From an uncultured Lachnoclostridium sp. (lineage in GTDB: Bacteria; Bacillota; Clostridia; Lachnospirales; Lachnospiraceae), in NCBI GenBank assembly GCA_946415315.1, contig CAMKRZ010000024.1, positions 1 through 52,053 of the forward strand: a DNA stretch of 52,053 bases, written 5' to 3'. This document shows positions 319-48,437 of this stretch, piece after piece; position 1 is the stretch's first letter, and each line of letters starts with the position of its first letter. Made by a program: the position numbers and the translations under genes. The notes beneath the pieces were generated by a model. That model worked only from the letters and a program-made list of their open reading frames with translations. It was not told the origin of the DNA and did no database searches.

Positions 319-2047
319 ATGCGTTTTTCAAAGTAATCCCGCGCATCCGGCTCAGGCAGCAGATCACGTCGATCGGCCGGATCTCCTCGTACCAGCGGTT
401 GGCGGCCGTGAGCATCCGCTCGAAGCCTGTCCTCGGTCTTGTGTCGTCAGAGACGATGTCGCCGGTGATCTGTTCCGCGGCCTCGCGGATCTCAAAGTCC
501 TCCGTGCGGGAGAGCATGAGCTCCATCGCGCAGGCGAGCGAGTTCAGCTGCTCGGTGCTCGCGATCGCCGACAGCGGAAGGACGTCGGCGCGGTAGTGAT
601 CCAGGATGATCATGCGGTTATTTTCCGTGTTGACGGTCCGGAAGAAGCACTGCGAAAGACCGTCCGTCTTCTCACAGTACCGTCTCGGCGTCCACGCGGA
701 AACGCTCACGGGATCGGTGTTCCTCGTGATCGGGAGTTTGTCCGTCACGTTGCGCACTTTAAACCGCTCGACGAGCAGCAGTGTGTCCGCGTACTCGAAG
801 TACGAGCTGATCGCACCGACGACGATGATCACGGAAGCCCCGCAGGACTCCGTCAGCTCGCGGATCCGGTCAGTGAACGGGATGATCGGATCGTTCGGGT
901 TGATCGCGCGGATGAGCGCGTCTTTCGTAAGAAAATTGGTCGCCGATTTGTCCTCGTCGACGAGAAGCAGTTTACTGCCGGCGTAGAGGCCCTCCACGAT
1001 GTTGGACGCCTGCGAGACGCTTCCGCTGGCGCTGTCGGTGTAGAAGCAATCGACGCTCTGATTCAGGAAATTGTCCTTGAAAAACGGGGAAATGTCGAGG
1101 TTGTTCACAAGCCTCCCGTCCTCGGCGTACGCCTTCAGCGCCGTGTGGTTGGTTACGACATACTCCCTTCCGTCCCCGGGGATGTGCGGGTAGATCCCGC
1201 TCTCAATCCCGTCAAGGATCGTGGTCTTGCCGGAGTATCCGCCTCCGGTGATGACCGTCACGCCCTTCGGAAGAGCCATGCCCGTGATCGAGCGGCCGCC
1301 GCCGAGAGGGATAGTGATCTCATTTTCCGAGGGAGAGGCGAACGGAACGGCACCCTGCAGTGGCTCCTGCTCCGTGTCGCCGCGCGCGATGACCGAGCCG
1401 TTGCCGATGAAGCTGCAGTAGCCGTGGTCATCGAGATACGCGAGGATCTCGCGGTAGTCGTTGTACACGCTGGTCTCCTCGGAAAGCCCTTCCGCGGAAA
1501 ATCGCTCCGCCCAGTCGGTGACCGTCTGCAGAAGCCCCTTGAGGAAGCGGATGCAGAGTTTGCCGCAGATCCGTGTCATGCCCATCAGCGGCATCCGGCA
1601 CATCAGACTCATCTGGAAATAACCACCCGCATAGCGGATCGCAGATCTGCGCAGGATCCGGTTGTCGTAGGACGGCAGTTGGATCTCGCCGCGCGTGCGG
1701 TTTTCGTCGGAGCGCGGATTGATGGCGCGCTTGAGGGAATTCGTATACTGCTGCAGCACCGGGTGCAGCTTTCGCAGCACAAAATCCTCACAGCACACCG
1801 GGTCCTCGACTGCAAAAGCCTCGTCGAACAGAAGCTCCTTCGGAAAGGAAAGCGTCAGCTGCAGATTCTGGGGCAGCCGGTAGTTGATCATGCGAAAGCT
1901 TAGCAGGATCCCGTTGAAGTGTTCGTACTCCGCACCGGTGATCTCGCAGAAACCTGTCTTAGACGCCCCGTCAAGACTTCCCTTGCCTTTGAACCGGGCC
2001 AACAGCCCGCTGGTTTTACAGATTGTTTTTTCATTCGTATTCGTCAT
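317..2047 (-). CDS. ABC-class predicted ATPase (PF09818-like)
   Basis: The 576-residue soluble protein matches the stand-alone 'ABC-class ATPase' family, which is distinct from transporter and ABC-F ATPases. A P-loop GGGYSGKTT has its lysine near residue 274, and a Walker B strand SKLLLVDED lies about 100 residues later. The N-terminal 240 residues hold the family's conserved region, including a basic LPSYDNRILRRSAIRYAGG stretch. No membrane segment is visible. The biochemical role of the family is not established, though RNA or nucleic-acid-linked roles have been proposed. The start has a GAGGTGAT ribosome site. A 24-codon upstream ORF overlaps the start, and a promoter-leader-terminator unit lies further upstream on the same strand, so expression is probably attenuated. 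Confidence 0.85.
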   Translation of the reverse strand: MTNTNEKTICKTSGLLARFKGKGSLDGASKTGFCEITGAEYEHFNGILLSFRMINYRLPQNLQLTLSFPKELLFDEAFAVEDPVCCEDFVLRKLHPVLQQYTNSLKRAINPRSDENRTRGEIQLPSYDNRILRRSAIRYAGGYFQMSLMCRMPLMGMTRICGKLCIRFLKGLLQTVTDWAERFSAEGLSEETSVYNDYREILAYLDDHGYCSFIGNGSVIARGDTEQEPLQGAVPFASPSENEITIPLGGGRSITGMALPKGVTVITGGGYSGKTTILDGIESGIYPHIPGDGREYVVTNHTALKAYAEDGRLVNNLDISPFFKDNFLNQSVDCFYTDSASGSVSQASNIVEGLYAGSKLLLVDEDKSATNFLTKDALIRAINPNDPIIPFTDRIRELTESCGASVIIVVGAISSYFEYADTLLLVERFKVRNVTDKLPITRNTDPVSVSAWTPRRYCEKTDGLSQCFFRTVNTENNRMIILDHYRADVLPLSAIASTEQLNSLACAMELMLSRTEDFEIREAAEQITGDIVSDDTRPRTGFERMLTAANRWYEEIRPIDVICCLSRMRGITLKNA

Positions 2048-2105
2048 TACACATCACCTCGCTGTTTCTAATGTCTGTCTGTCGGAACAATGGATAGAGT
2101 TGCAT
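2031..2105 (-). CDS. 24-residue upstream ORF overlapping the ATPase start
   Basis: An ATG at 2105 (minus strand) sits about 8 nt after a strong AAAGGAG ribosome site. It opens a 24-codon frame beginning MQLYPLFRQTDIRN that stops at 2031, 17 nt inside the ATPase gene in another frame. Overlaps of this kind usually couple translation of the downstream gene to that of the leader. The peptide resembles nothing I know. It could also be a chance frame, but the spacing and ribosome site are better than those of many real genes here. Confidence 0.4.
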   Translation of the reverse strand: MQLYPLFRQTDIRNSEVMCNDEYE

Positions 2106-2212
2106 GTTACTTCTCCTTTCGCTTGGGATATGTAACCGCAGGTGAAGACATTATTTGCAGCGCGATGCGGCGGAAAATGAGGGACAACCTCACGGGCAGG
2201 TTCCCCGGGAAA

Positions 2213-2959: not shown

Positions 2960-3017
2960 AGTGACGCCGTGAATGGGGGAGAAGGAGACCGGCGACGGTA
3001 AGAATGGTGTTTGGAAA

Positions 3018-3824
3018 ATGATCACGGTAATTGATAATTTGGAAGCTTATACAGGCTTTATCGAAAGGCTTGCGGCGGATCCGCGCTACTCGGATCCCCA
3101 TTTTTCGTACGATCCGCAGAACCTGTACTCGGCGCTTCAGGCACCAGATCACAAGGCATATGCATCAGTAGACGGCGGCGCGGCGAACGGTGTTTTTGCG
3201 TGGGTGATCCTCCCGGAGGATCGGTACGCGGAGCTGATCGTCGGCTTCTCGGAGTCCGAGGACGCGTGGGAGGAGATGTTTACGCTCATTGAACGCGAGA
3301 ACCCCGGGTTCCAGCTTGACTTCGTGATCAACCCGAGGCACGATGTGCTCCGCGGAATATTGCAGCGAAAGGGCGCTATGTTCGAGAAGGAGCAGAAGAA
3401 GTTTCGGCTTGTCCGTGAGACGGCAGCGGCGGAAGCTCCCGGAGTCGACGTGCTGCAGCCGGAGTACGAGGAACAATACTGCGCGGCACACACGAAGGAC
3501 ACGTACTGGACCGCGGAGCGGATCCTCGAGGCTCGTGACCGCTTTCGCGTACTGGCGGCAGTTGAGCAGGGAAAGTTGGTCGGCTACCTTGATATCACGA
3601 CCGGTCATTCGGAAAATGAACCCTACGACCTTTGGACGGCCCCCGGCTTTGACCGGTACCGTAAACCCTTGCTGGCAGCGGCGATCCGGCGGAACCGCCC
3701 GAACGGCATGATGGTGGTGATCGACACGGACGATGCGGCGGAGATCGCGCTGTACGAGTCGGTCGGGTTCGAGGCGATCGAGAATTCGGAGAGTGTCTAC
3801 GCGACATATCAGGCGGGGGATTAG
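3018..3824 (+). CDS. Tandem-GNAT-like acetyltransferase
   Basis: About 268 residues with two GNAT-like halves. The first (residues 1-130) covers MITVIDNLEAYTGFIERL to an acidic helix. The second (about 140-268) includes GKLVGYLDITTG, an arginine-rich helix and the terminal ALYESVGFEAIE typical of GNAT ends. The canonical Q-x-x-G-x-G loop is not obvious in either half, so the acetyl-CoA site may be degenerate. Neither of two possible starts has a convincing ribosome site: 2973 adds 15 hydrophilic residues, while 3018 begins at the fold, so I prefer 3018. It lies 14 nt before the next gene and is likely cotranscribed. Confidence 0.7.
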   Translation: MITVIDNLEAYTGFIERLAADPRYSDPHFSYDPQNLYSALQAPDHKAYASVDGGAANGVFAWVILPEDRYAELIVGFSESEDAWEEMFTLIERENPGFQLDFVINPRHDVLRGILQRKGAMFEKEQKKFRLVRETAAAEAPGVDVLQPEYEEQYCAAHTKDTYWTAERILEARDRFRVLAAVEQGKLVGYLDITTGHSENEPYDLWTAPGFDRYRKPLLAAAIRRNRPNGMMVVIDTDDAAEIALYESVGFEAIENSESVYATYQAGD

Positions 3825-3837: not shown

Positions 3838-4875
3838 ATGTCTGAGGAGAACAAACCGACCGGGGAGATTCGGGACATTTTCCGACTCTTCTTCGATGAG
3901 GAGCCGGTGGACGCGAAGGTGATCGTAACGAGCCGCGGCGAGGAGGATTTCCGGAACGCGGTGATCCTTGAGACCGCTGAGGGAACTAAGTATGTGCTCA
4001 AGATCACAGCCAATGATTTTACGAATGATGAGAGGATCCGCGTGTGGCAGCGGACGATCGAAGAGTACCGGGCGCTGGGGTACTACTGCCCGATGATCTA
4101 CAGCGACAAGACGGGCGGGTTCCCGACGGTTACATACGAGGGGCACGAGTGCGTCGCGTACGTTGAGGAATTCGCGAAGTACAAGACGGTGGAGGACCGC
4201 GCGGCCGCGGACAAGAACGGACAGAACGCGGACTGCGAGGCGTATTTTGAGGATATGTGGGCGATGACTGCGAAGATCGCGGCGAAGAAGTTTCAGTACT
4301 CGAAACATCCGTCGGCGTACTGCCTGTTTGAGCTGTTCTGCCCGAGCGACGAGATTGACGAGGTTTTGGAAAATGCTCAGGACTGGAAAGAGACGGCGGA
4401 CGAGTTGCCGGAGGAATTCGCGGAGCAGGTTGCGCGGATCTGGAAACTGTGGAGCGACAACCGCGAGGCGCTGAAGGAGCCGTACGGGAAGTTGCCGACG
4501 TCCGTGTTCCAGGCGGATCTGAACTCCACCAATCTTCTGGTGGACGAGGACGGAAAGTTTGCGGGCGTCTGTGATTTCAACCTCTGCGGCAGGGACGTGT
4601 TCCTGAACTACCTCATGCGCGAGAATTTCGACGATTTTGAGGAGGAAATCGAGGATATCCGTCGGGCGTTGACGGTCGCGAGCCGGTATTACACATTTTC
4701 CGGGGAAGAGAAGGCGATCGCGCTCTCGCTGTACCGCTGCCTGAAGCCGCTTTGGTACATTCGCGTGGAGGAGCTGAGGAAAGCGGGGACAGACCGCGAG
4801 GCCGTGAAGCGATGCCTCGACCGGATCGAACACTATCTGACGGCGGACATCGATTTTACGAGTTATATGGGATGA
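3838..4875 (+). CDS. APH/choline-kinase-fold phosphotransferase
   Basis: The 345-residue protein has the aminoglycoside phosphotransferase fold. A glycine-poor N-lobe carries the strand YVLKITAND, whose lysine should bind ATP. The Brenner motif is QADLNSTN, with the catalytic Asp near residue 227 and Asn near 232. The metal-binding motif is CDFNLCG, with Asp near 246. The usual HGD is replaced by QAD. Families with this fold phosphorylate small alcohols, amines or antibiotics; the substrate here is unknown. A perfect GGAGGTAA ribosome site lies 6 nt before the ATG, and the gene follows the acetyltransferase by 14 nt. Confidence 0.75.
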   Translation: MSEENKPTGEIRDIFRLFFDEEPVDAKVIVTSRGEEDFRNAVILETAEGTKYVLKITANDFTNDERIRVWQRTIEEYRALGYYCPMIYSDKTGGFPTVTYEGHECVAYVEEFAKYKTVEDRAAADKNGQNADCEAYFEDMWAMTAKIAAKKFQYSKHPSAYCLFELFCPSDEIDEVLENAQDWKETADELPEEFAEQVARIWKLWSDNREALKEPYGKLPTSVFQADLNSTNLLVDEDGKFAGVCDFNLCGRDVFLNYLMRENFDDFEEEIEDIRRALTVASRYYTFSGEEKAIALSLYRCLKPLWYIRVEELRKAGTDREAVKRCLDRIEHYLTADIDFTSYMG

Positions 4876-4926: not shown

Positions 4927-6210
4927 GTGGATGACAGGATCAGTGTTGATGTTTTCATCAGCTATTCGTCGAAAAATAAAAATGTGGCGGATGCCGTTGT
5001 TTCCGATTTTGAGCAGAACGGGATCCGATGCTGGTACGCGCCGCGGGATATCCTTCCGGGGAAGGAATGGGTGACGGCCATCAAGGAGGGCATCTATTCC
5101 GCGAAGGTCTTCGTCCTTCTGTTCACGGAGGAGTCCAACACCTCGCGCCAGGTGATGAATGAGGTGGCAATGGCGTTCAATGCCGAGAAAACCATCGTCC
5201 CGTTCAAGCTGACGAAGGAGGAGATGAGCGACGAGCTGGAATACTACCTCACGCGCGTCCATTGGCTGGATGCGGTGTCCGAGCCGTTGAGCGCTCACAT
5301 CGAGGAGCTTCGGAGGTTTGTCGGGATCATCCTCAGTGGTTCCGATCCGCAGGCGACGCGGAGACGCGGGATGGCCGACCGTGATGCGGACAGAGGAAGC
5401 GATGAAAACAACAGGGACAACAGAAGAGACAGCAATATTGACCGTGGCAGCAACAGCGGAATCCGCTCCGACGCCGGTCGCCGCAGGCGCTTCCTTATCT
5501 TCGCGAGCGTTGTTGCCGTCCTGGTGATCGCGGCGGTCATTTTACTTGTCGTGAAGCCGTTCGGCTCCGGCAAGAATGCGGGGACCGAGGGCGGAAACGG
5601 CGGGCAGGAGCAGGAGGAAGAGAAGGGGCAGGAAAAGAAACAGGAGCCAAAGAAGGATGCATTTTCCGAGGCGAAGGAACTGGGAGATGCCTGCTTCGAT
5701 AAGGGCGATTACGAAAATGCCCTTGCGAACTATCTGAAATCGCTGGAACTCGGCAACACGGACACCGCCACGTATTACCGGATCGCGAAGATTTATCTCG
5801 ACGGGAAATCCGGTGACGGGACGAGCGAGGAAAACGGACTGAAATACCTGGAACTGGCGTACAAGGGCGGCAGCGGAGCGACGCTCACGGGCGACGAGTA
5901 CTATCTTCTCGCTTATAAGTATGATTCGGATCTGTCCGGCTCCGATCCCGCGAAAGTGTTTGAGTTTGCGGAGAAAGGCGCTGAGGCGGGATCGCTGCCC
6001 TGCATGATCCTGGTGGGAGAGGCGTACTGGTACGGACGCGGGACCGAGCGGGATTATGAACTGGTTTTGAAATGGTTCGGCAAGGCGCTCGACAGCGGAG
6101 CGGAAGGATACACGCGAAACTATTGCATTGCCGGCATCACGTCGCTTGTCGAGGAAGGGCATGTGACTCGCGAGGCAGCGGAACGATGGATCGGAGACAG
6201 TAACCGGTAA
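4927..6210 (+). CDS. TIR domain - transmembrane - Sel1/TPR repeat protein
   Basis: Residues 7-135 form a TIR domain (VDVFISYSSK, then CWYAPRDILPGKEW, then VFVLLFTEES, ending VHWLDA). An Asp/Asn/Arg-rich linker leads to one membrane helix at about 189-211, then an acidic/Lys/Gln segment and Sel1/TPR-type helical repeats at about 250-420 (KYLELAYKGG; FEFAEKGAEAGSLPCM; YGRGTERDYELVLKWFGKAL). The predicted topology puts TIR inside and repeats outside. TIR domains can cleave NAD or act as adaptors; a Glu in SRQVMNEV sits where the NADase glutamate is expected. GTG at 4927 follows AGGAGA by 10 nt; an in-frame GTG at 4897 is the alternative. Confidence 0.8.
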   Translation: MDDRISVDVFISYSSKNKNVADAVVSDFEQNGIRCWYAPRDILPGKEWVTAIKEGIYSAKVFVLLFTEESNTSRQVMNEVAMAFNAEKTIVPFKLTKEEMSDELEYYLTRVHWLDAVSEPLSAHIEELRRFVGIILSGSDPQATRRRGMADRDADRGSDENNRDNRRDSNIDRGSNSGIRSDAGRRRRFLIFASVVAVLVIAAVILLVVKPFGSGKNAGTEGGNGGQEQEEEKGQEKKQEPKKDAFSEAKELGDACFDKGDYENALANYLKSLELGNTDTATYYRIAKIYLDGKSGDGTSEENGLKYLELAYKGGSGATLTGDEYYLLAYKYDSDLSGSDPAKVFEFAEKGAEAGSLPCMILVGEAYWYGRGTERDYELVLKWFGKALDSGAEGYTRNYCIAGITSLVEEGHVTREAAERWIGDSNR

Positions 6211-7902: not shown

Positions 7903-8466
7903 ATGAATCCTGCAGGATTGGCAAGAAAGATTTTTTGGAAACGGGCGTGCATCTATGTGTGCGCGGTTGCGATCGCCGTGGTTTTCCTTGTGCTGGCGCA
8001 CGTCGCCGCGGCAGTGGAGATCGGGTATCTTTCAATGTTGGAAAATGGGGAGAAACTCGCGGATGAGCTCGCGCAAAATCAGGCGCTCGAGTTGTTCCTG
8101 TACATTCTGACCTTCCTGATCGTTCCGACGGCTGCGCTTGCGTTTTTTACGAACACGGCACTCGCCGGCAGCGAGAAGAAGCTTCGTCTGAAGCTGAATG
8201 AATTGCCTACGGAGCAGAGAATGGACGGATATCGCGTATTCCGCCGGCAGTACCTCTGGTATCTGCTCGGCTGTCTTGCCCTCGGCGGAGCATCTATTGC
8301 GTTTGCCGCATCCTTCCAGGTGTATTGGGTCGCGGTTTCCGCTACGTCGCTCATGCTTGTGCTGGCGATCACGCTGCTCATGGTTGCGTTCCTTCCGGAT
8401 CCGCATCGGCAGAAGAAACCGCCGAAGGATGAGGAGCCGAAGGAGCGAAAGGAGCTGATCCTCTGA
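7903..8466 (+). CDS. Four-helix membrane protein, unknown function
   Basis: 187 residues with hydrophobic segments at about 15-36, 63-84, 113-133 and 137-163, a charged cytoplasmic loop (GSEKKLRLKLNELPTEQR) and a Lys/Glu/Pro tail. I recognise no family. A GAGGAAAGG ribosome site precedes the ATG. It closes the rightward run that began with the ElaA-like gene and is followed by a strong terminator. Confidence 0.6.
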   Translation: MNPAGLARKIFWKRACIYVCAVAIAVVFLVLAHVAAAVEIGYLSMLENGEKLADELAQNQALELFLYILTFLIVPTAALAFFTNTALAGSEKKLRLKLNELPTEQRMDGYRVFRRQYLWYLLGCLALGGASIAFAASFQVYWVAVSATSLMLVLAITLLMVAFLPDPHRQKKPPKDEEPKERKELIL

Positions 8467-8626: not shown

Positions 8627-9667
8627 TCACTCGTGCCTGATCAGCGAAAGCAGTTTGTCGCGCACGCTGTCCATGCGCTCGTCGTCGATGCCGAAGTCCA
8701 TGCGGCGGTAGCTCCATGCGGCGGAGCCGATTCCGTAGCGCTTCATCACGGTGTGGAAAGCCTCGTACCACAGGAGCACCTCCTCCGGGTCAACAAGGTT
8801 GATCACGCCGTACTCACCGCAGTAGAGAGGCACGTTGCGCTCCTCGGCAGCGGCGATCGCGTCGGCGAACAGCGTCTCAAAATAGCGGTCATCCGGAACG
8901 GCGTCCGGGTCAAACCGGTCGAAGGATGCGGAAAATGCCGCGCCCAGCTGCTCGACGCTCCCCTTCGCGTACTCGCGGTACGTCTGCCGGAACGGGCAGC
9001 GGAAATCGTGAGCCATCGAGGAGATCCAGTAGGCGCCCTGGTGCGTGAACAGCAGGGGCTCATAGCAGTGGAAGTTGTAGATGATGTGCTCGTCGTGCGG
9101 CAGTGCGAGGTCGCGAACTGCCTCCACACTGTTGTTCCAGTAGCCGCCGACCAGGATCGGGATGTCCGGCGCAACGCGGCGGATCCGCTCGATGCAGTTG
9201 CCTGCGATGCGGTTCCAGGTGTCGCAGTACTCCTTTGCAGTGACTTCGTTCAGCAGCTCAAACGCAAGGAAATCCGAGCAGTCGGCGTAACGCTCTGCGA
9301 ACCGGTCCCAGATCCGGTAGAACATGTCCTGGTAGAACTCGCTGTCGAAAAATCCGTTCTCGTGGACGGCCGGATCGAAGGAGAACCCCGGCGTGCGGTG
9401 CAGGTCGAGGATCATGTTGAGGCCGTTCTTGCGGCACTCCTCAATCGCGAAGTCGATGTAGCGGAAGCCTCTCTCTAGGAAAATGCCTCCGTTGTCCATG
9501 ATCAGGTCGTAGTCGACCGGAACGCGGATGTGGTCGAGACCCCATTCCTTCACCTTTGCGAAATCCTCGGGCTGAATGAAAGAGTCATAGTGACTGATCG
9601 TGTGGTCGCATTGCGACAGCCAGCCGCCGAAATTGATGCCGTGTTCATAACCGGGCCAATGCTTCAT
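8627..9667 (-). CDS. Glycoside hydrolase family 5 enzyme
   Basis: The 346-residue single-domain enzyme has the GH5 (beta/alpha)8 pattern: GINFGGWLSQCD at the start, WGLDHIRVPVDYDL, LDLHRTPG, the acid/base glutamate in FELLNEV (E141) and the nucleophile in YCGEYGV (E285). GH5 enzymes hydrolyse beta-linked glucans, mannans or related glycosides with retention of configuration. No signal peptide is present, so it probably acts on imported oligosaccharides in the cytoplasm. It follows ispE on the same strand, with 99 nt between. Confidence 0.9.
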   Translation of the reverse strand: MKHWPGYEHGINFGGWLSQCDHTISHYDSFIQPEDFAKVKEWGLDHIRVPVDYDLIMDNGGIFLERGFRYIDFAIEECRKNGLNMILDLHRTPGFSFDPAVHENGFFDSEFYQDMFYRIWDRFAERYADCSDFLAFELLNEVTAKEYCDTWNRIAGNCIERIRRVAPDIPILVGGYWNNSVEAVRDLALPHDEHIIYNFHCYEPLLFTHQGAYWISSMAHDFRCPFRQTYREYAKGSVEQLGAAFSASFDRFDPDAVPDDRYFETLFADAIAAAEERNVPLYCGEYGVINLVDPEEVLLWYEAFHTVMKRYGIGSAAWSYRRMDFGIDDERMDSVRDKLLSLIRHE

Positions 9668-9766
9668 GTGAGTGTCCTTTCTGTGGGCATACTTTGTATT
9701 TGCAGTATGTGATCGAATTGCCGCGCGTTCACGGGATGCGGAGCAGCGGTTGCATTTTCCTGTTGA

Positions 9767-10630
9767 TCAGGGCTGCAGCGGCCGCACGAGGTACGTCTCG
9801 CTGCCGTAAGGACCGACGCGGAAGTGCGTGTAGGCGAAAGATGCCGCTTCCTTCGTCGGGAAAATGCCGTAGACCGTCGGGCCGGAGCCGCTCATGAGAA
9901 CGCCGTCGGCACCAAGCTGATGCATTTGTGACTTGATGGTTGCGATCTCCGGGCAATGCTCGAGCGTGACCGTCTCCAGAACGTTGCCGAGTTTGGAGAC
10001 AACGCCGATGTAGCTGCCCCGTTTGATCGCGTCGATCATTCCGTCGACATCGGGGTGCGTCAGAGCATCCATGTTGAGGTTCTTGTACACGAAGCCGGTG
10101 GATACGCCTGCCGGAGGTTTTACCAGCAGGATCCGGCATCCGGGCATCGCCGGCAGCGGGGTGATGATCTCTCCGATGCCTTCCGCGAGGGCGGTCCCAC
10201 CCATGATGCAGTAGGGAATGTCCGCGCCGAGCGTCACGCCGAGGTTGCACAGCTCCGTGGAGGAGAGCCCGAGCTCATAGAGCCGGTTGATGCCGCGAAG
10301 CGTGGCTGCAGCATCCGAGCTGCCGCCCGCAAGACCTGCGGACATCGGAATTCTCTTGTCCAGCTCGATGTAGAGGCCGCCGGGAAGCTCATACTTGTCA
10401 AACAGCAGTTTCGCGGCGTCGTAGACAAGGTTGCCCGGGCCGGCCGGCAGCGGTGCCGTGCCGACGGAAAGTGTGATCCCCGGGGCGTCCGTCTTCGTCA
10501 GTTTCAGGGTGTCATGCAGGTCAACGGACTGCATGATCATCCGCACATCGTGATAACCGTTATCGCGCACGCCCGTGACATCGAGCGCTAAGTTGATCTT
10601 CGCATAGCCGTATTCGGTCGTGGATTTCAT
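9767..10630 (-). CDS. ispE: 4-diphosphocytidyl-2-C-methyl-D-erythritol kinase
   Basis: IspE phosphorylates CDP-ME in the non-mevalonate (MEP) isoprenoid pathway. The 287-residue protein has the GHMP-kinase signature: AKINLALDVTG at the N-terminus, the ATP loop PMSAGLAGGSSDAAATL, LGADIPYCIMGGTA, and the C-terminal MSGSGPTVYGIF. The start at 10630 has an AAGGAG ribosome site; a longer in-frame extension upstream adds 48 residues outside the family and is rejected. A promoter lies 38-66 nt upstream. It is divergent from ddl, so two cell-envelope-related genes share this intergenic region. Confidence 0.95.
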   Translation of the reverse strand: MKSTTEYGYAKINLALDVTGVRDNGYHDVRMIMQSVDLHDTLKLTKTDAPGITLSVGTAPLPAGPGNLVYDAAKLLFDKYELPGGLYIELDKRIPMSAGLAGGSSDAAATLRGINRLYELGLSSTELCNLGVTLGADIPYCIMGGTALAEGIGEIITPLPAMPGCRILLVKPPAGVSTGFVYKNLNMDALTHPDVDGMIDAIKRGSYIGVVSKLGNVLETVTLEHCPEIATIKSQMHQLGADGVLMSGSGPTVYGIFPTKEAASFAYTHFRVGPYGSETYLVRPLQP

Positions 10631-10667: not shown

Positions 10668-10696
10668 AGTATAAGGAGGAACAACGGAAAATGCAA
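10668..10696 (-). promoter_or_regulatory. ispE promoter
   Basis: On the minus strand TTGCAT (10696-10691) and TATACT (10673-10668) are spaced by 17 bp, giving a start near 10660 and a 5' leader of about 30 nt before ispE. Confidence 0.65.
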
Positions 10697-10812
10697 GGGA
10701 GGAAAACAAGCCGAAATTCGTGAAAAACTCTTTCCCGCGCTGTTTGCGTGCAATCGGTACGGAATTTCATACATTTTCCGAGCAGGCAGATCGTGGCGGA
10801 CTTGAAAAATCT

Positions 10813-11970: not shown

Positions 11971-12405
11971 ATGGATGTGTTGTTGAAGATAAAAGGGATC
12001 GTCCGGTCGGACACGGAGGATGTGACGGAATCCATGGTGTGCGGATCGTACTACCGGAAGGATGATTCCATCTACATTTTCTACGAAGGTGTGGACGAGG
12101 AGACGCCGGAACTGATCACGCGCCACCGGATCGTTGTGACCGGTGACCGCGTCGAGGTGCAGCGGACCGGAGCGATCCGGTCGTCGATGCTCATCGTTCC
12201 GGGCGAGCTCAACCAGTGTGAGTACGAGACGCCGTACGGTGTTCTGCAACTCGACTTCTACGGAATATCCGTGGAGGCGGAGGCCGGGGAAACGTCGGTG
12301 CGGATCCGCATGACCTATGAGATCCGACTCGCCGACTCGCCTGTCTCGGAAAATGAACTGATCATCGAGGGGAGCGGCGTGCCGTCCCCGGAGGACACAC
12401 AGTAA
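11971..12405 (+). CDS. DUF1934 (YwiB-like) beta-barrel protein
   Basis: 144 residues matching the DUF1934 family: IKGIVRSDTEDVTESMVCG, IYIFYEGVDEETPELI, RIVVTGDRVEVQRTG, then SSMLIVPGEL and a C-terminal run of beta strands ending VRIRMTYEIRLA. The family is a small lipocalin-like barrel without an established function, commonly next to envelope or translation genes in Firmicutes. It lies 4 nt after ddl and is followed by a strong bidirectional terminator, so ddl and this gene form a two-gene transcript. Confidence 0.85.
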   Translation: MDVLLKIKGIVRSDTEDVTESMVCGSYYRKDDSIYIFYEGVDEETPELITRHRIVVTGDRVEVQRTGAIRSSMLIVPGELNQCEYETPYGVLQLDFYGISVEAEAGETSVRIRMTYEIRLADSPVSENELIIEGSGVPSPEDTQ

Positions 12406-33914: not shown

Positions 33915-33924
33915 GGTGTGACGC

Positions 33925-34716: not shown

Positions 34717-34729
34717 CAGGAGAGATACT

Positions 34730-35623: not shown

Positions 35624-35651
35624 GAAATCTTTCGGAAAGGAGGTGGAGTCG

Positions 35652-35918: not shown

Positions 35919-35950
35919 GCATTTGGACAAAGACAAGACCATTTCATCGC

Positions 35951-35974
35951 GGCAGGGGGGACTCACCCCCTGCC
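35951..35974 (+). promoter_or_regulatory. Hairpin after the pilin gene
   Basis: A perfect 9-bp stem GGCAGGGGG/CCCCCTGCC with a 6-nt loop, without a T-run. It is placed to stabilise the upstream pilin mRNA end or to limit read-through. Confidence 0.65.
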
Positions 35975-35997
35975 CGGATGGGATGAGGAGAACAATT

Positions 35998-36723: not shown

Positions 36724-36741
36724 TTACGGAGGATCGCTATA

Positions 36742-39700
36742 ATGAAGATACAGTGGTTTACAAAACGAACGCAAGGTTCCATTTCCATAATGCTTTGTGT
36801 TTTGATGCTGCCAATGGTGCTTTTTTCATCTTTGGTGGTTGATGCTTCACGTCTTCATTCGGTCAAAACGACCATCAGCGGAGCAGGCGATCTGGCATTA
36901 AATGCACAGCTGTCTGAGTATGAGCAGGTATTGTACGATATGTATGGCCTTTTTGCCTCGGTACAGTCAACCAATGAGCTTCAGGCAGCGTTGAAAGATT
37001 ACTTTAAGCAGACTATTGAGAAAAGCGTTACCGATGAGGAAGAATCCAAGATTGACGCAATTGCTGATCAGCTTGTGGATTTTGTTTTCCAAACAGGAGC
37101 GTCAGGAGCGACCGATTTTGATAACCTGATATCACTGGAATGTGTGGATTTTTCCACCGAAGGCGTTCCTTCGTCGGCACTGTCCAACCCTGCAGTGTTG
37201 AAACGGCAGATAATCGAGACGATGAAATATCGTGGACCGGTTTCTGTTGTTTCCACGATCCTCAGCAAGTTAAACATTTTCAAAAACAGCAGCAAACAGG
37301 CCGAAGTAGTTGAGAAAAAGATGGATTATCTCACTTCTCTTGACGGCCTTACAGAGGCGTGCCTGGAGGCATATTACGAGATTCAGCGCAGGCCGCAATA
37401 TGATGAGAAGGGAAACCTCAAGAGCAAAGAGTATGACGAACCGGGATATAACCTTGCGGCAGAGAAATTCAACACGTTTCGCAACGGCGATGATAAAGAG
37501 GGTGAACAGTTAGAGAAAACGTTCATCGAGAGAATCCCTGAGTGCCTGACGTGGGCCATAACGGCAGTTCAGGTAAAGAAGGAACTGGAAGAGGGAGAAA
37601 AGGGAAACAGTATCGAATACGGAAAGTTGCAGGACTTAGACCGGGAAATCGCGGAGATAGAGATTCCGAAACCGGATATGAACGAGCTGGCGAATCAGTT
37701 TGATACTGCGGTTCAGACTACCATACCCCAGGAAGTTGTTGATGCGATCAATGAGTATCGTGATAAGTTCGCTGAAGTTTATGATGAAATGCTGCGTATC
37801 GTTAGCATGGATTCGTATGTGGAACGCGGCCTTTTGGAACGTGTACTCGGTGGAGATTGGGATACCATTGGCGAAGACGTAGTCTTTTCCGGCAATCCGG
37901 CAGGCGGTTATTATGTGTCCGCAGACGGAAAAAACATTAATTTTGAAGATATCAGAGTGTTTATTTCTGAAGCGTCAATAATTGAAGGTTATCTTCCCCA
38001 TGCCGGCTCCTGGACCAATAACCTGGCAAATTGGGAATACTGTGAGTCCTATATGGAAGACCTGATGAATTATCAGCAGGTTGCTTTTGGCGGTTGGAAA
38101 GAGAAGATCAATTTACTGTTTGAAAAATACCAGGAGGGATATAACACACTATCTTCACTTTACAATAAGTACGATGCTTCCTATTCCACGATGATCGACG
38201 AGTTCCCTATCGACAACGAAGATTTGGAGAAGGTTGAAACGCAATATCAGAATGTTTCCGAACAGTGGGAGCTGGTAAAGAAAACATATAATGCTCTGCA
38301 TGATGTCACGGAGACCGTAGCATCATTTTATACTTGTGCAACCGATTATTCGAAGGTGCAGAAGATACGTGATGCATGTTTTACGGTGCCTTCCAACCGG
38401 GTATTTATAAGGTATCGCGCATCATTGCTGGATTCATACAACAGAGCGATTTCCGCTGAAAACAGATTGCAGGATATCCTCAACCTTTTGGATGAGATTG
38501 AAGCGAGGAAAAAGGAGTGGGGAGATTCCCTGAACGGCGTGGATGACGGAGCGATCAAGTCGTCCATGAAAAGCGATTATTCAACAACGACAGAGGCTTA
38601 TGATAAGAAGGAAATCGAAAACCTGAAGAAAAATATCGAGAACAAGCGTCGAAAGGTTGCGCGATATCTCGAATTGGTTGAGAAATCCGCAACTTTCTGC
38701 GAAAGAAAACTCGGAGAGTTCAAAGATGTTCCGGACGGTGAAATTCTCCATGAGATGTCGCTGTATAAGCTCCAGACAGTTCCGAAGAATTTATCCAGTT
38801 ATAAGCAGGCCGCCAAGAAGTTCGCATATATAGAATACGAATGTGACAAAAACCTTACAGGTTTGTCGGATTCGAAGCTGTCCGAGGGGGCAAAGTACAA
38901 AAAGAAGAATAAAGACTTAGTTGATCTGGGGTATGTTGACGGATATAAAGACTCTGAGGACTACAAGAAACTGAGCACTAAGTTAGAGGATGAGGAGAAA
39001 TTCTGGTTTATTCTGAAGGAAATCGGAGAGGGAGAACGGGAAGAACAGGACCTCAATGAGGACCAGCAAAAACAGAAGGACAATATCAACGAGGCTGTCG
39101 AGAACAATAAATCTGATGAGATTGGCAAGGTAGAAGAAGATAAAAAGGAAACAAAGGAGCAAAGGAATAAAGCAAAAGAAGTAGGGGACATTTACGACAG
39201 GATCAAGACTACAAATGCCAAGGTTAAGGAGCAGAATGAAGATGACGGCAGTACAGACGCCGTAAATGATTCAAACGGCAATACGGTTCCTGGAAAACAG
39301 AAAAGTTATAAGGATCAGGGAAATAAATCCAAGAAATCTGTTTCCGCCGGCAAAGGCTTTTTGGCGACTCTTGCAAATATCGGGAAGACTGTCGGTGAAT
39401 ACACGTTTGAGGAAGAGTACTTTACCGAATTGTTTTCCTGTGATTACGATTCCGTAATAACCAAGAAAAACGGAAGTATTAAGACCGATCTGTTCGGGAA
39501 TTCCCTGAAGAGAGGTGCGGAGGGACTGTACGGCAGAGAGATTGAGTACATCTTATGGGGTGACAGCAATCTTGATTCGAATGTCTCTTCGACGTATACC
39601 AGAATCTTTTTGATCCGTTTGGTTATCAACACAATATATGCTTTTACGGCTGCGGACATTCAGTCCTTTGCACTGGAAGTAGCCACAGCCATAGCAGGAT

Positions 39701-41031
39701 GGACTGTGTTTGGAGTGCCGATCGTACAGGCTATTATTACCATTGCGCTTGCGCTTGCCGAGAGTGGAGTGGATGTAGGAAAACTTAAGAACGGCGAAGA
39801 TGTTGTAATACTGAAAAGCACTACAACGTTTGTGTGTTCGCCGACTGGTCTTGTCACTAACGGAGTTAAGAAACTTGCCACGGAAGCAGCGAAACAGATT
39901 ACCGATTATGCTGTCGGAAAACTGGGACAGTTTATGTCGACACTTAAGGGAACGATTGGAGACAATATTGATAAACTGAATTCATATGTCAACAGTTATG
40001 TCAGTACCCAGATAAAAGGAATTAAAGATCAGGTCTCCAGTTTGATAGAGAAACCGCTGGTTGAATCACTGAATTCGATCAGCCTGAGAATGCAGGCAGG
40101 GATTGAAGCGACCGAAGCGGAACTTGACCAGGCGATTGATAATGGAATTGAGCGGGTTAAAGAGAGCATTGACGAGCTGCCGGATTCCATGACGAAAGAA
40201 TTGGCCGGTAATGCGTTCGAGTATTTAAAAACAAACTTAGTCGGAGAACTGAAAAACTCAATAAAGACTAAGGTCGCGGAACTCGGGAAAAAACCGCAGA
40301 ATGTTATCTCTGAATTGATTAAGGTTATTGACGCGAAAATCGATAAGGTGATGGGCGGAATAGAAAGTACCATCACATCGAAAACAAACGAATTAGCTTC
40401 GAAGGCAAAGCAGGAACTGAATGAGTTGGCAGATAAGCCGGTCGAATACTTCGAATCATTTATGAATGAGAAGATGGGCGAGGTCGCTGATAAGGTCAGT
40501 GGTTCCATTACCGAGCATCTGAGTAGTTGGATCGGCGACAGTGTCGGAAATGCGGTTTCCAGCGCGATTGACAGTACGTCGGGCGGATTGGGAATCACGA
40601 TGAATTATCGTGAGTATTGTAAGTTGTTTGTGTTCGTGGAGCTTGCCCTGGGACATGAGTCCGGTATGCTTCAGCGTACAGCCGCTTTGATCGAAATGAA
40701 TGTTAAACACGGGCAAGGGAAGAATTCGTCTAAAAACACAACCTTCGACATTACTAAGGCATATACGCTTTTGTTTGCCAAAGGAACAGTCAAGGTGAAG
40801 ACAATCTTTCCTTGGGGAACTGTTGTAAACATGGATGAGACCGGTGGCGCTGGTGATGAGACCAAAACCGTGGTTTCGGATTATGCAGCGGATGCGGATC
40901 CGCAAGGGACATCCACAGAGAACGAAGGGACTGACGATAAGAAAACAGATAACAATGATCTGTACAGGTGGCTTTCTGAGGAGAATACACCTGAAGTAAC
41001 GATTCAGTACCGGGCTATTAACGGGTATTAA
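36742..41031 (+). CDS. Giant TadG/DUF5702-like coiled-coil protein
   Basis: 1429 residues. The N-terminus (TQGSISIMLCVLMLPMVLFSSLVVDASRL) is a TadG-type anchor, with GAGDLALNAQLSEYEQVLYDMYGLFA, a signature I associate with DUF5702 of Firmicute Tad loci. A large extracytoplasmic body follows, rich in Glu/Lys heptads (about 620-690 and 730-850). A hydrophobic block at about 955-1010 may be membrane-associated. Then come amphipathic helices (about 1050-1280) and a C-terminal domain with FVFVELALGHESGMLQRTAALIEMN. It is far larger than usual TadG. It could be a stalk or tip adhesin. CGGAGGATC precedes the ATG. Confidence 0.75.
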   Translation: MKIQWFTKRTQGSISIMLCVLMLPMVLFSSLVVDASRLHSVKTTISGAGDLALNAQLSEYEQVLYDMYGLFASVQSTNELQAALKDYFKQTIEKSVTDEEESKIDAIADQLVDFVFQTGASGATDFDNLISLECVDFSTEGVPSSALSNPAVLKRQIIETMKYRGPVSVVSTILSKLNIFKNSSKQAEVVEKKMDYLTSLDGLTEACLEAYYEIQRRPQYDEKGNLKSKEYDEPGYNLAAEKFNTFRNGDDKEGEQLEKTFIERIPECLTWAITAVQVKKELEEGEKGNSIEYGKLQDLDREIAEIEIPKPDMNELANQFDTAVQTTIPQEVVDAINEYRDKFAEVYDEMLRIVSMDSYVERGLLERVLGGDWDTIGEDVVFSGNPAGGYYVSADGKNINFEDIRVFISEASIIEGYLPHAGSWTNNLANWEYCESYMEDLMNYQQVAFGGWKEKINLLFEKYQEGYNTLSSLYNKYDASYSTMIDEFPIDNEDLEKVETQYQNVSEQWELVKKTYNALHDVTETVASFYTCATDYSKVQKIRDACFTVPSNRVFIRYRASLLDSYNRAISAENRLQDILNLLDEIEARKKEWGDSLNGVDDGAIKSSMKSDYSTTTEAYDKKEIENLKKNIENKRRKVARYLELVEKSATFCERKLGEFKDVPDGEILHEMSLYKLQTVPKNLSSYKQAAKKFAYIEYECDKNLTGLSDSKLSEGAKYKKKNKDLVDLGYVDGYKDSEDYKKLSTKLEDEEKFWFILKEIGEGEREEQDLNEDQQKQKDNINEAVENNKSDEIGKVEEDKKETKEQRNKAKEVGDIYDRIKTTNAKVKEQNEDDGSTDAVNDSNGNTVPGKQKSYKDQGNKSKKSVSAGKGFLATLANIGKTVGEYTFEEEYFTELFSCDYDSVITKKNGSIKTDLFGNSLKRGAEGLYGREIEYILWGDSNLDSNVSSTYTRIFLIRLVINTIYAFTAADIQSFALEVATAIAGWTVFGVPIVQAIITIALALAESGVDVGKLKNGEDVVILKSTTTFVCSPTGLVTNGVKKLATEAAKQITDYAVGKLGQFMSTLKGTIGDNIDKLNSYVNSYVSTQIKGIKDQVSSLIEKPLVESLNSISLRMQAGIEATEAELDQAIDNGIERVKESIDELPDSMTKELAGNAFEYLKTNLVGELKNSIKTKVAELGKKPQNVISELIKVIDAKIDKVMGGIESTITSKTNELASKAKQELNELADKPVEYFESFMNEKMGEVADKVSGSITEHLSSWIGDSVGNAVSSAIDSTSGGLGITMNYREYCKLFVFVELALGHESGMLQRTAALIEMNVKHGQGKNSSKNTTFDITKAYTLLFAKGTVKVKTIFPWGTVVNMDETGGAGDETKTVVSDYAADADPQGTSTENEGTDDKKTDNNDLYRWLSEENTPEVTIQYRAINGY

Positions 41032-41048
41032 AGAAACGGAGTGTCAGC

Positions 41049-41915
41049 ATGACGAAGCGGATTGACAATCGGGAGAGTGGAGCGATAGCCATTGATGCGA
41101 TCCTTGGTATTACGGTCTTTTTGATTTCGATGTGTACCATAATGTTCCTGTCATTCATTATACGCATCGAGGCGAAAATGCAGTATGCGGTCAATCAAAC
41201 GGCGAAGGAGATTTCTTCCTACTACTATGTGTTGGACACGGTAGGCCTTGCAAAATTTACTAGCAGCGGGTCATCCGAAGATAAAAAAGCGATCAACTCG
41301 ATCTTGGACGGCGTGTCGGATCTGGCCTCTGCAACAGGAGGAACTCTCTCAAGCATTGATATCGATCTTAAAGATCTGCCGGGAACCCTCAGCAGGGCGG
41401 CAGCAAGCCGTGATGAGCTTGTCGCGAATTATCAACAGGCCCAGAGTTTGTATGCCAAGATCAAAGATGCAGGCAAAAACCCGATGGGACTGATGAAAGG
41501 AGCATTGTTGGCCTGTGCCCATTCATTTTCCAACCGGATGATCGCACCGTTTTTGTGTCGTATGATAATGCCGAAGTACATAGAAAGCGACGATGCCAAG
41601 AGGGAACGGTATTATAAGACACTCGGATTGGAACACGGGATCGATGATATCGATTTTTACCGTTCTTCCCTGATGGATGATAACAGAACAGTGAAAATTG
41701 TCGCAGTCTATCAGGTTAACCTGAAGGAGTTGTCTTTCGGACTGCTTGATATTGATATGACTTTTTGCAAAACAGCGGTTACCGCAGCCTGGTGTAAGCC
41801 GGATGGGAAGTATGTTTACACATTGGCGGAAGCATATAAAAAGAGAGGCGGCGGGCAGAAGGCTGAAGCCGATAAAGGGAAAGACGAAAAGGAAAGCGGA
41901 AAAGACAAAGAATAA
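41049..41915 (+). CDS. TadE/F-like pseudopilin with acidic-basic tail
   Basis: 288 residues. RESGAIAIDAILGITVFLISMCTIMFLSFII gives the short leader and hydrophobic N-helix of a TadE/F-like minor pilin. The exterior part has helical segments (ASRDELVANYQQAQSLYAKI) and SFGLLDIDMTFCKTAVTAAWC. The tail is Gly/Lys/Glu-rich. It starts 17 nt after the giant gene and is probably made together with it, perhaps as a partner. Confidence 0.75.
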   Translation: MTKRIDNRESGAIAIDAILGITVFLISMCTIMFLSFIIRIEAKMQYAVNQTAKEISSYYYVLDTVGLAKFTSSGSSEDKKAINSILDGVSDLASATGGTLSSIDIDLKDLPGTLSRAAASRDELVANYQQAQSLYAKIKDAGKNPMGLMKGALLACAHSFSNRMIAPFLCRMIMPKYIESDDAKRERYYKTLGLEHGIDDIDFYRSSLMDDNRTVKIVAVYQVNLKELSFGLLDIDMTFCKTAVTAAWCKPDGKYVYTLAEAYKKRGGGQKAEADKGKDEKESGKDKE

Positions 41916-42682: not shown

Positions 42683-43993
42683 ATGAAAAAAATGCTGCCG
42701 ATCGTTTTTCTGATGGTGTTAGTCGGATTGGCGATCATCTCCTGGAGCAATGTGCTTTCGTATGCAGGAAAGGAAAAAAAGGAATACGAGGGTTACATTT
42801 CCCAAGGCGAGGCGTTGGAGGAGAAAGAAATCTACGTCGATGCCGTAAAGCAGTATGAAAAGGCTTTGGCGATGAGACCGAAGAATTATGATCTTGCGGT
42901 TCGGATTGCCAAACTTTACGCGAGTGATAAACTTGCAATCGACGGGAAATACATCTCGGCATGCAAGAAGGCAATCAGTATTGATAAGAGCAAGGAAGAG
43001 CCTTATGACATGTTGATCGCATACTATTGCGAACGCGGTTATACAAGCAAGGAATACGAGATTCTGATGGCAGCTGCGGAAGCGGTTGACACGGACAAGT
43101 ATACCGCCCGGATCACGGAACTTCGCGGATTGTATAACGAGGCGGTTCTGCGGTACGATACGATCTCCGATTGCTACTACGATGCTTCCGGGACGGGATA
43201 CTACATTGTGAAGAAGGACGATATCGTTTCGGTTATCTCTGCCGAGGAGGAAACCGTTCTGAGCGGGAAATACGATGAACTCGGGTTTTACAGCGAGTTT
43301 GTCGCGCCGGTTTCGGTCGACGGCGAATGGTTCTATATAACCAAGGAAGGATACCGTAAATTGGTCCCGGATGAGCCTGCAGAGTATCTCGGGCCGTTCG
43401 TGAGCGGATTTGCTCCGGCGAAGATCGGCGGAAAATACGGGTATCTTAACAAGAAAATGCAGAAGCTGCATTTTGAGTTTGATTATGCGGGTCCGTTCTG
43501 CAACGGTCTTGCCGCTGTGAAAAAGGGTGATACGTGGATGGTTATCACCACCGCGTTCAAGAAAGTCGGTGACACAACATTCGATGATGTTCTGCTGGAT
43601 TCCTTCGGAATCTGCTCGGCGAGGGGAGTATTTTTCGCGAAGAAAGACGGAAAGTATTACCTGTACAACAAAGCCGGCAAGCGCATCTCCGACGGCTTTG
43701 ACGAAGCGAAGGTATTTGTCTCGGATGAGCCGGCGGCTGTAAAAAGCAGCGGAAAATGGGGCTTCCTCGGCAAGGACGGTAAGCTCACAAGAGAACCGGA
43801 ATATGAAAATGCAGATTCCTTCTGTGCGGGATATGCGCCCGTGTACGCGAACGGAAAATGGGGCGTTATGGATGTTGATTACAACATTGTGATCGAGCCG
43901 AAATATGACAAGATGGAGGCATTTGAGAAAGATGCTTCCGCGATGGTAGAGCTGGAAGGCAAGCAGTTGAGGATCCGAATGAGAATTAAATAG
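42683..43993 (+). CDS. Membrane-anchored TPR / WG-repeat protein
   Basis: 436 residues. One N-terminal membrane helix (LPIVFLMVLVGLAIISWSN). TPR-like helices (about 35-160) include YVDAVKQYEKALAMRPKNYDLA. Then a beta-propeller-like set of WG repeats follows (GGKYGYLNKK; DGKYYLYNKAGKRI; SGKWGFLGKDGKL; NGKWGVMDVDYNI). Tad loci often carry a TPR protein (TadD) that helps pilin secretion; this may fill that place. The WG part may bind the cell wall or partner proteins. I start at 42683 because GGAG is 7 nt upstream; 42671 is possible. Confidence 0.8.
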   Translation: MKKMLPIVFLMVLVGLAIISWSNVLSYAGKEKKEYEGYISQGEALEEKEIYVDAVKQYEKALAMRPKNYDLAVRIAKLYASDKLAIDGKYISACKKAISIDKSKEEPYDMLIAYYCERGYTSKEYEILMAAAEAVDTDKYTARITELRGLYNEAVLRYDTISDCYYDASGTGYYIVKKDDIVSVISAEEETVLSGKYDELGFYSEFVAPVSVDGEWFYITKEGYRKLVPDEPAEYLGPFVSGFAPAKIGGKYGYLNKKMQKLHFEFDYAGPFCNGLAAVKKGDTWMVITTAFKKVGDTTFDDVLLDSFGICSARGVFFAKKDGKYYLYNKAGKRISDGFDEAKVFVSDEPAAVKSSGKWGFLGKDGKLTREPEYENADSFCAGYAPVYANGKWGVMDVDYNIVIEPKYDKMEAFEKDASAMVELEGKQLRIRMRIK

Positions 43994-44078
43994 ACACATT
44001 TTCCGATGACACCGGAACGGTAAAAGAGGAAAAGGGCTCGAATGAGCCGGGAATGATGAAAAATGAGGAGGCAACAGT

Positions 44079-47032: not shown

Positions 47033-47066
47033 ATTAACAATTTACGGAAAACGGAGGGCTTTTTAG

Positions 47067-48437
47067 GTGGGCAAAGAGATTGTGAAAAAACTATGTATGA
47101 ACCAACATTATTTTGACGGGGCCACGTATACGAACTGTCCGGTTTGCGGTGCGCCTGCAATGATGAATGCGGAGCCTGCGGACCCCAGACCGAATTTTGC
47201 TCAGAGTGTTGGTACACAGGACAAAAAGGAGAAGAAGAGCGGGTTGTTTGGCTGGCGCAAGAAACTCAAGGAAGATCAGCAATCAATGCCCGACAATCCT
47301 GTTGGACCGGGAGGATACAATCCTTCTGTGCAGCAGCATGCCGCGCCGCAGGGCAACCAGTGGAGTTCACCTACGGTACCGCTTGAATACGGCGAAATCA
47401 ACGGGAATGTTTCGCCCGAACCGGTCAGGGATCCCAACGTGACAGTTCCGTTATTTGTCGATGCAAACAATGGCAATAACGGATCAGCGCCTTATCCGCA
47501 GGGAGTACAAAATGCTCCGAACGGAGCGGGGCCGCAATACGGTGCAATGCCTCAGGGAGTTCCGCAGGGAATTCCGCAGGGAATGCTGATTCCTCCGAAT
47601 GGCGCAATGCCGCAAGGAGGGGCGGTTCCGCCGCACGGCACTGCTCCTCAGAGGATGCCTGGCCCTCAGAACGGTTCGTTGCCGCAGGGAATGCCGGTGT
47701 CTCCGAACGGAGCTTCCGTACAGCACGGTGCAGGAACTCCGCAGATAACGCCGCTTGTTCAAACACCTCCGATGCCACAGAATCCTTCTGCGGTTTCCGC
47801 AGGGGCATCAAACCGGATCGATCCCGGAAATACTGTCCCGACACCGGCGGTCGGAAGTGCGGGTGCTCCCGCAGCACAAAGTGAAAACTCCGGTATCACC
47901 GATGCCTCCGGCCAGGATTTGGAAGGTACGATCAAAAGGGCTGTCGCCAATAACGAAGAGAGAACAATAAGCTTCTTTACCACGAAGGTAACTCCGCAGC
48001 AGCCCAATGAGCAGACAGCTGAGCATGCGACTGAAGATGTTCCGGCAGCAGCTCCGCAGACCGGGATGCAGGATCCTGTTTGCGGTTGGATCGTATGTGT
48101 CGCCGGTATGCATTTCGGAGAGTTCTTCCCGATATGTGCCGGAAAGAACTCCATCGGAAGAAGTCCGTCGAACCGGATCGTTCTGTACAAGGATAAATCC
48201 GTATCTAGAGAGCGCCATGCCTCTATTGTATATGAACCTCAAAAACGTCACTTTTATCTCCAGCCGGGCAACGGTGACAACACCGGATTGACATACCTCA
48301 ACGAAGAGTACATTGATTCATCGAAACAGTTGAAAGAATACGATGTGATCGGACTGAACACGACGTGCAAATTTGTCTTCGTACCTCTCTGCGGCGAATC
48401 ATTTTCCTGGGAGGAATATCTTAGTAAGGAGACCTGA
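47067..48437 (+). CDS. Zinc-ribbon-like / Pro-Gln-Gly linker / FHA protein
   Basis: 456 residues. The N-terminus (LCMNQHYFDGATYTNCPVCG) offers Cys/His ligands for a zinc site. A basic patch and a very long disordered linker (about 75-330) follow, with PQGVPQGIPQGM-type and PNGAxPQ-type repeats. The C-terminal FHA domain (about 350-445) has NSIGRSPSNRIVL, SVSRERHASIVY and TGLTYLNEE. It should read phosphothreonine. It starts with GTG after GGAGGG, and ends 5 nt before the kinase gene, so the two are coupled. Confidence 0.85.
   Translation: MGKEIVKKLCMNQHYFDGATYTNCPVCGAPAMMNAEPADPRPNFAQSVGTQDKKEKKSGLFGWRKKLKEDQQSMPDNPVGPGGYNPSVQQHAAPQGNQWSSPTVPLEYGEINGNVSPEPVRDPNVTVPLFVDANNGNNGSAPYPQGVQNAPNGAGPQYGAMPQGVPQGIPQGMLIPPNGAMPQGGAVPPHGTAPQRMPGPQNGSLPQGMPVSPNGASVQHGAGTPQITPLVQTPPMPQNPSAVSAGASNRIDPGNTVPTPAVGSAGAPAAQSENSGITDASGQDLEGTIKRAVANNEERTISFFTTKVTPQQPNEQTAEHATEDVPAAAPQTGMQDPVCGWIVCVAGMHFGEFFPICAGKNSIGRSPSNRIVLYKDKSVSRERHASIVYEPQKRHFYLQPGNGDNTGLTYLNEEYIDSSKQLKEYDVIGLNTTCKFVFVPLCGESFSWEEYLSKET

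Follow-up and report, generated by a model that had tools for sequence, protein, structure and literature searches.

A strongly over-represented octamer as a candidate DNA uptake word in a Lachnospiraceae-related genus

What keeps a single octamer, GGAAAATG (read on the opposite strand, CATTTTCC), so common in the DNA of an uncultured clostridial bacterium? The stretch analyzed here (contig CAMKRZ010000024.1, 52,053 bases, hereafter the window) comes from a genome of 2.93 Mb in 42 contigs, 97.5% complete and designated G000, and among named sequences its DnaB is closest to those of Lachnospiraceae metagenome-assembled genomes, the nearest being RGIG2905 from goat omasum at 74%. No octamer is more frequent in the window than GGAAAATG, which has 36 exact copies, 18 on each strand, the first at 1321 and the last at 48400-48407, and 31 of them fall within the first 31 kb. 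These counts agree with the initial annotation of the window, which had described about 36 copies in equal orientation, at a density near one per kb over the first 31 kb and some 20-fold over chance. The size of the excess varies because the null model differs: it is about 26-fold against base composition (1.39 copies expected) and 12-fold against dinucleotide shuffles (mean 3.05; largest 8 in 100 shuffles), with further values from the codon-aware nulls given below. We consider it probable, at roughly 0.6, that GGAAAATG works like a DNA uptake signal, which would be kept abundant via biased uptake and recombination.

Over the whole genome of G000 the octamer occurs 890 + 873 = 1763 times, or one per 1.7 kb, versus 18 + 17 = 35 times for the reversed word taken as a control. 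The codon-aware expectation was obtained from a sample of 20 stretches of 20 kb plus the window (452 kb, 312 predicted genes), in which synonymous codons were shuffled inside each gene, 100 times. This gives 24.1 ± 5.2 expected copies, the largest value being 38, against 226 seen (about 9-fold), and a cruder stop-to-stop gene set (445 kb) gives a smaller excess, with 261 copies against 41.5 expected (6.3-fold). When all octamers are ranked by their codon-shuffle z score in a 411-kb coding sample, GGAAAATG takes rank 1 (233 vs 26.1), far over expectation. The 279 other orderings of its letters reach at most 70 copies in 492 kb, with 12 as the median, as compared with 305 for GGAAAATG. The copies occupy all six phases, in line with the earlier remark that every reading frame is used. 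Codon use points the same way: G000 writes GCG in 47% and GCA in 21.5% of cases, and TTC in 60% and TTT in 40%, yet 58 of the 116 [ASTP]-Phe-Ser tripeptides are coded NCA TTT TCC, where 1.7 would be expected under independent codon use, so that GCA TTT TCC is indeed written against codon preference. The two codon-aware nulls also uphold the suggestion that the force acts on DNA rather than on protein. The part of the 452 kb not covered by predicted genes amounts to 74.8 kb and wholly contains 60 of 294 copies.

The flanks contribute little beyond GGAAAATG itself. Over 293 copies the preceding base is C in 58% and the following base is G in just 9%, with a slight pyrimidine bias 3 and 4 bases upstream. 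One-mismatch variants, counted against a second-order Markov model, are raised 1.8- to 6.0-fold when the change falls at positions 1, 2, 3, or 8 and are not enriched when it falls at positions 4 to 7 (0.55-1.9). Mutational decay alone would not treat the ends and the core so differently, and the end-tolerant, core-strict pattern therefore looks like graded recognition.

Relative to transcription, 127 copies are sense, 130 are antisense, and 37 lie outside genes, and one 20-kb stretch of contig C1 has 6 and 5 copies on its two strands. By GC skew, 155 copies fall on the G-rich strand against 121 on the C-rich one (56%, p = 0.047). Other orderings of the same letters are on the G-rich strand in 71% of cases, so the composition of GGAAAATG would lead one to expect more orientation than it shows. 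Chi and KOPS sites are likewise short over-represented words, but they are oriented to the replication strand and GGAAAATG is hardly oriented; a word of that type is ruled out by the weak strand bias, as the initial annotation had supposed. The spacing of copies is random and not even (282 gaps, mean 1479, coefficient of variation 1.02). Pairs less than 60 bp apart are mostly inverted, in 11 of 12 cases in G000 and in 11 of 14 in ten other genomes, that is, 22 of 26 (two-sided p = 0.0005) over the GGAAAATG-rich group of 11 genomes in the DnaB tree described below, G007 included.

Published accounts describe uptake words as present in hundreds to thousands of copies with one-base dialects (PMC3630211, in which the neisserial DNA uptake sequence, DUS, is counted as a 10-mer), as free of orientation bias with about 10% in inverted repeats (PMC1939737), as often occurring as inverted repeats (PMC12616744), and as sparser in genomic islands (PMC7371117). 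The number and the orientation of copies found here clearly have this character, and the inverted pairs have it in part.

Alignment of G000 with six relatives (blastn, 76-81% identity) finds 29 of 82 GGAAAATG sites exactly kept versus about 24% of same-letter octamers in the same pooled alignments, although these sites are not independent because the six relatives are themselves related. An earlier count on overlapping data, restricted to the window and ten relatives, had given 31 of 79 kept versus 16-28% of all aligned octamers. Forty-four of the 53 changed sites differ without gaps, and copies are gained and lost mostly via substitution in homologous DNA. Density is thus kept up even though individual copies appear and vanish, the pattern to be expected from a biased process and not from individually needed sites. 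Among genes grouped into quarters by codon use, the least typical have a 6.4-fold and the most typical a 17-fold excess, a rise due in part to an expectation that falls across the quarters, whose densities are 0.44, 0.68, 0.70, and 0.57 per kb. In the window, the last 23.3 kb contain 8 of the 36 copies and the first 6.2 kb contain 8 more, neither part being aligned to the fetched part of G005. A footprint of GGAAAATG in peptide frequencies was looked for at the protein level and gave no clear signal.

How could such a word be read and spread? A pilus protein, probably a minor pilin, would bind GGAAAATG on free DNA, the retracting pilus would pass this DNA to ComEA and ComEC, and the imported strand would recombine into the chromosome. 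If fragments bearing GGAAAATG were imported more often, words made by chance would tend to spread by recombination, and biased import together with recombination would let copies accumulate without each being needed. Changes in the receptor may then shift the favored word and yield lineage dialects. The genome is predicted to encode suitable machinery. A type IV pilus locus on contig C5 (C5:65001-85000, stretch L217) encodes PilT and PilM, which pass curated cut-offs, as well as proteins resembling PilB and PilC that pass the Pfam cut-offs but not those of the NCBIfam equivalogs; the locus, with both extension and retraction ATPases, also has a prepilin peptidase and five proteins with pilin signal; G000 also has ComEA and ComEC (stretch L218) and DprA. 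Among the genomes searched, ComEC was found in 38 of 41, ComEA over cut-off in 27 of 31, DprA in 22 of 25, and pilin signals in 23 of 31. Relatives that lack the excess thus commonly have the machinery too, and it permits, and does not prove, the uptake reading. The pilus stretch (L217:1-20000) carries 6 copies of GGAAAATG and the comEA/comEC stretch (L218:1-20000) carries 5, versus about 13 per 20 kb over the 20 stretches. In two members of the genus the comEC match is in two pieces (G015:C63 and G016:C57), with stop codons in G016, and both still carry GGAAAATG, in 374 and 807 copies, respectively.

Among the genomes counted, GGAAAATG at a level like that of G000 is confined to one Lachnospiraceae-related genus. 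The 22 genomes of the genus of the window have 221 to 1763 copies each, or 99 to 648 per Mb. A comparison set drew 293 further genomes from the order and 397 from the phylum, with a few shared between the two samples; read by eye, its highest count is that of G268, with 727 copies in 2.5 Mb against 129 of the reversed word. In a DnaB tree, midpoint-rooted for drawing and leaving out G015, which has no DnaB stretch, the GGAAAATG-rich genomes, 11 in all, group together with support. Its sister is a mixed lineage of G001, G021, G004, G012, G016, G008, and G018; the pair G006 and G017 is placed outside with weak support (84/63), and G011 is outside too. Among 10-mers, repeats rich in GGGGACGGGGT stand out in stretches L123-L127 of G004, and repeats rich in CAATGGATGG in stretches L113-L117 of G006.

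The favored word differs between these lineages, with reservations set out below: GGCAAATG is favored in the sister lineage and GGAAAATG in the lineage of the window. By codon-aware z, GGAAAATG has rank 1 in G000, G014, G009, G005, and G019 and rank 2 in G002, while GGCAAATG has rank 1 in G001 (38 vs 4.4) and G012 (17 vs 2.2); in G007 CGGCAAAT comes first and GGAAAATG second, and in G006, G017, G024, and G040 neither GGAAAATG nor GGCAAATG is the top octamer. No genes were predicted for G008 and G016, and both were covered by a recount on coding samples in which one gene rule (stop-to-stop) was applied to all genomes. In this recount the excess of GGCAAATG is higher than that of GGAAAATG in 6 of 6 mixed-lineage genomes (G001, G004, G012, G016, G008, and G018, with more than 30 kb each), at 3.6-7.8 vs 2.4-3.4, and the excess of GGAAAATG is higher in the other lineage, again in 6 of 6 genomes (G000, G005, G009, G014, G019, and G002, with more than 80 kb each), with G007 set apart at 5.2 vs 4.0. 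The tallies exclude G013, G020, G003, G010, G021, and G015, with less than 20 kb of genes each, and G011 (33 kb), a member of neither lineage. Whole-genome ratios of GGAAAATG to GGCAAATG run from 7.8 in G014 down to 0.8 in G012. A third form, GGTAAATG, tops the ranking in a small sample from G023, which belongs to another genus (15 vs 2.6 in 77 kb). We regard as evenly balanced the wider proposal that the genus has a code for uptake of self DNA that evolved independently of those of Neisseria and Haemophilus, is read by the pilus, and partly fences gene exchange between co-resident species through one-base dialects.

Several findings weigh against these readings. The known uptake-word receptor is ComP, with ComN as a predicted one. 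The pilin at L217:5856-6422 matches PF16732 (ComP_DUS) with an E-value of 0.0058 and 17.9 bits, below the cut-off of 27.3, and this match may serve as a lead only; gene-by-gene comparison of the pilus loci singled out no receptor. The genus members G006 and G017 have almost no excess of GGAAAATG or GGCAAATG (0.7- to 1.5-fold), their top codon-aware octamers being unrelated and no other such word emerging among them. Both nevertheless retain ComEC, ComEA, and a pilus locus, and G006 retains DprA (the search for DprA, in 25 genomes, excluded G017). Outside the genus, ComEC is found in 18 of 19 relatives searched, which are without GGAAAATG at this level. The excess of GGAAAATG in non-coding DNA is small, and close pairs are not above chance, with 10 under 50 bp versus 9.4 expected. 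The conservation in relatives that had been put forward as a check is above the control when pooled but modest, and G002 keeps only 2 of 13 sites, below its own control. As for the dialects, the first rank in G004, G018, and G011 goes to neither word; the recount intervals of GGAAAATG and GGCAAATG overlap in G004, G008, G018, G019, G002, and G007; and the raw count of GGCAAATG exceeds that of GGAAAATG in G012 only. Compared with its own reversed word, GGCAAATG has 334 vs 96 copies in G000 and 424 vs 137 in G001, which does not separate the lineages, and G007 is placed inside the GGAAAATG-rich group of the tree. GGTAAATG is weak genome-wide in G023 (361 vs 154) and raised more in G000 (160 vs 30), and is not counted here as a further dialect form.

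Could the word instead be read inside the cell? An unoriented recognition site, recombination-stimulating or nucleoid-organizing and kept by selection, is in our judgment unlikely, although the genome-wide spread and the sharp graded core would suit any sequence-specific binder, and the missing excess in the competence-bearing G006 and G017 suits it as well as it suits uptake. Against such a site, the word is less strand-biased than its letters predict, is spaced at random and not evenly, and turns over rapidly.

A second possibility is a methylation word of the HIP1 kind, which an orphan methyltransferase would read and repair or replication would keep common. The cyanobacterial HIP1 is the palindromic octamer GCGATCGC, whereas GGAAAATG is not its own reverse complement, and we know of no lineage-specific forms or inverted close pairs as features of HIP1. 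The two are alike in being a single octamer far over expectation, and HIP1, hugely over-represented, has been linked to orphan methyltransferases (PMC4390886). The initial annotation had named both uptake signals and HIP1 as resemblances; uptake signals fit better because GGAAAATG is non-palindromic, has lineage forms and tolerant ends, and is accompanied by a pilus with ComEA, ComEC, and DprA, and we take a HIP1-like role to be improbable. GATC-centered palindromes are also frequent in the window under a second-order model, with 20 copies of GCGATCGC, the HIP1 octamer itself (4.6 expected), and 10 of GCGGATCCGC (1.0 expected).

That mutation bias, codon choice, or frequent peptides produce GGAAAATG as a by-product is very improbable, given the synonymous shuffles, the use of all six phases, the coding of [ASTP]-Phe-Ser, the presence of copies in non-coding DNA, and the far rarer alternative orderings of the same letters. 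A full explanation by peptides and codons, named at the outset as what would overturn the claim, is accordingly just as improbable. A few copies are probably protein-driven, such as those at 43751 and 43853, which are in-frame Gly-Lys-Trp codons (frame computed by hand) 34 codons apart in a WG-repeat gene (open reading frame 42671-43993, Pfam WG_beta_rep). The dispersed copies in both orientations could also be relics of a short mobile element or an insertion target, but this alternative is negligible, as flank conservation is slight past one base on each side and 44 of 53 changed sites at homologous places differ without gaps.

The uptake reading is best placed by comparison with the two known systems. 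GGAAAATG is like the neisserial DUS in having at least about a thousand copies in both orientations, one-base lineage forms, both tolerant and invariant positions, and a type IV pilus with ComEA, ComEC, and DprA in the same genome. It differs in its unrelated sequence, its shorter core, and its Gram-positive lineage, in dialects that are less clean, in a receptor side limited to the sub-threshold ComP_DUS match, and in an uptake bias that we infer. The uptake signal sequence (USS) of Pasteurellaceae has an extended A/T-rich flank, and no such flank was seen around GGAAAATG, which is also unrelated in sequence and belongs to another lineage with another envelope. Both are unoriented, occur in coding and non-coding DNA, and have similar densities, that of the H. 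influenzae USS being about one per kb (PMC7811141). Judged by titles and the starts of abstracts, none of the matches listed for the GGAAAATG octamer is about a bacterial genome word, and those listed for uptake words or iterated octamers report no such word from Lachnospiraceae or other Clostridia, in a collection without most subscription papers. Veillonella has been screened by others, with no word named in the accessible part of the paper (PMC5397411).

All copies in the window are collected in the table, together with the copy-free stretch, which holds a Tad-type locus with a TadZ-like protein, a secretion ATPase, a T2SSF protein, and a 1429-aa protein with a sub-threshold Tad-like start. 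The adjoining region (42671-50419) encodes the WG-repeat protein, two FHA-domain proteins, and a Ser/Thr protein kinase.

Table. Copies of GGAAAATG and the copy-free stretch in the window (positions counted from the first base of the window)
Feature	Position	Strand	Remark
GGAAAATG copy	1321..1328	-	exact match
GGAAAATG copy	2172..2179	+	exact match
GGAAAATG copy	3013..3020	+	exact match
GGAAAATG copy	3611..3618	+	exact match
GGAAAATG copy	3876..3883	-	exact match
GGAAAATG copy	4368..4375	+	exact match
GGAAAATG copy	4694..4701	-	exact match
GGAAAATG copy	5660..5667	-	exact match
GGAAAATG copy	8040..8047	+	exact match
GGAAAATG copy	8930..8937	+	exact match
GGAAAATG copy	9478..9485	+	exact match
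GGAAAATG copy	9753..9760	-	exact match
GGAAAATG copy	9859..9866	+	exact match
GGAAAATG copy	10686..10693	+	exact match
GGAAAATG copy	10772..10779	-	exact match
GGAAAATG copy	11765..11772	-	exact match
GGAAAATG copy	12348..12355	+	exact match
GGAAAATG copy	13120..13127	+	exact match
GGAAAATG copy	14159..14166	+	exact match
GGAAAATG copy	16353..16360	-	exact match
GGAAAATG copy	16458..16465	-	exact match
GGAAAATG copy	16584..16591	+	exact match
GGAAAATG copy	16915..16922	-	exact match
GGAAAATG copy within DnaB helicase gene	19955..19962	-	exact match
GGAAAATG copy	21474..21481	+	exact match
GGAAAATG copy	25771..25778	-	exact match
GGAAAATG copy	27223..27230	+	exact match
GGAAAATG copy	27591..27598	-	exact match
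GGAAAATG copy	29157..29164	+	exact match
GGAAAATG copy	29996..30003	-	exact match
GGAAAATG copy	30876..30883	-	exact match
Copy-free stretch with Tad-type pilus locus	30884..41523	.	10.6 kb, 46% GC, longest among the G000 stretches examined
GGAAAATG copy	41524..41531	-	exact match
GGAAAATG copy, Gly-Lys-Trp in WG-repeat gene, probably protein-driven	43751..43758	+	exact match
GGAAAATG copy, Gly-Lys-Trp in WG-repeat gene, probably protein-driven	43853..43860	+	exact match
GGAAAATG copy	43997..44004	-	exact match
GGAAAATG copy	48400..48407	-	exact match

If the role of GGAAAATG is confirmed, self-recognition tags would extend to a kind of bacteria without known ones, and the genus would provide a third, independent case of an uptake word, in a Gram-positive lineage. 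It would also speak to the old question of whether uptake words stem from selection for within-species mating or are a side effect of biased uptake, since this one genus combines lineages that have the word, lineages that have a shifted form, and lineages that show no excess. The finding would further point to gene exchange by transformation in an anaerobic gut genus, and DNA bearing GGAAAATG may then be a route to transforming it.

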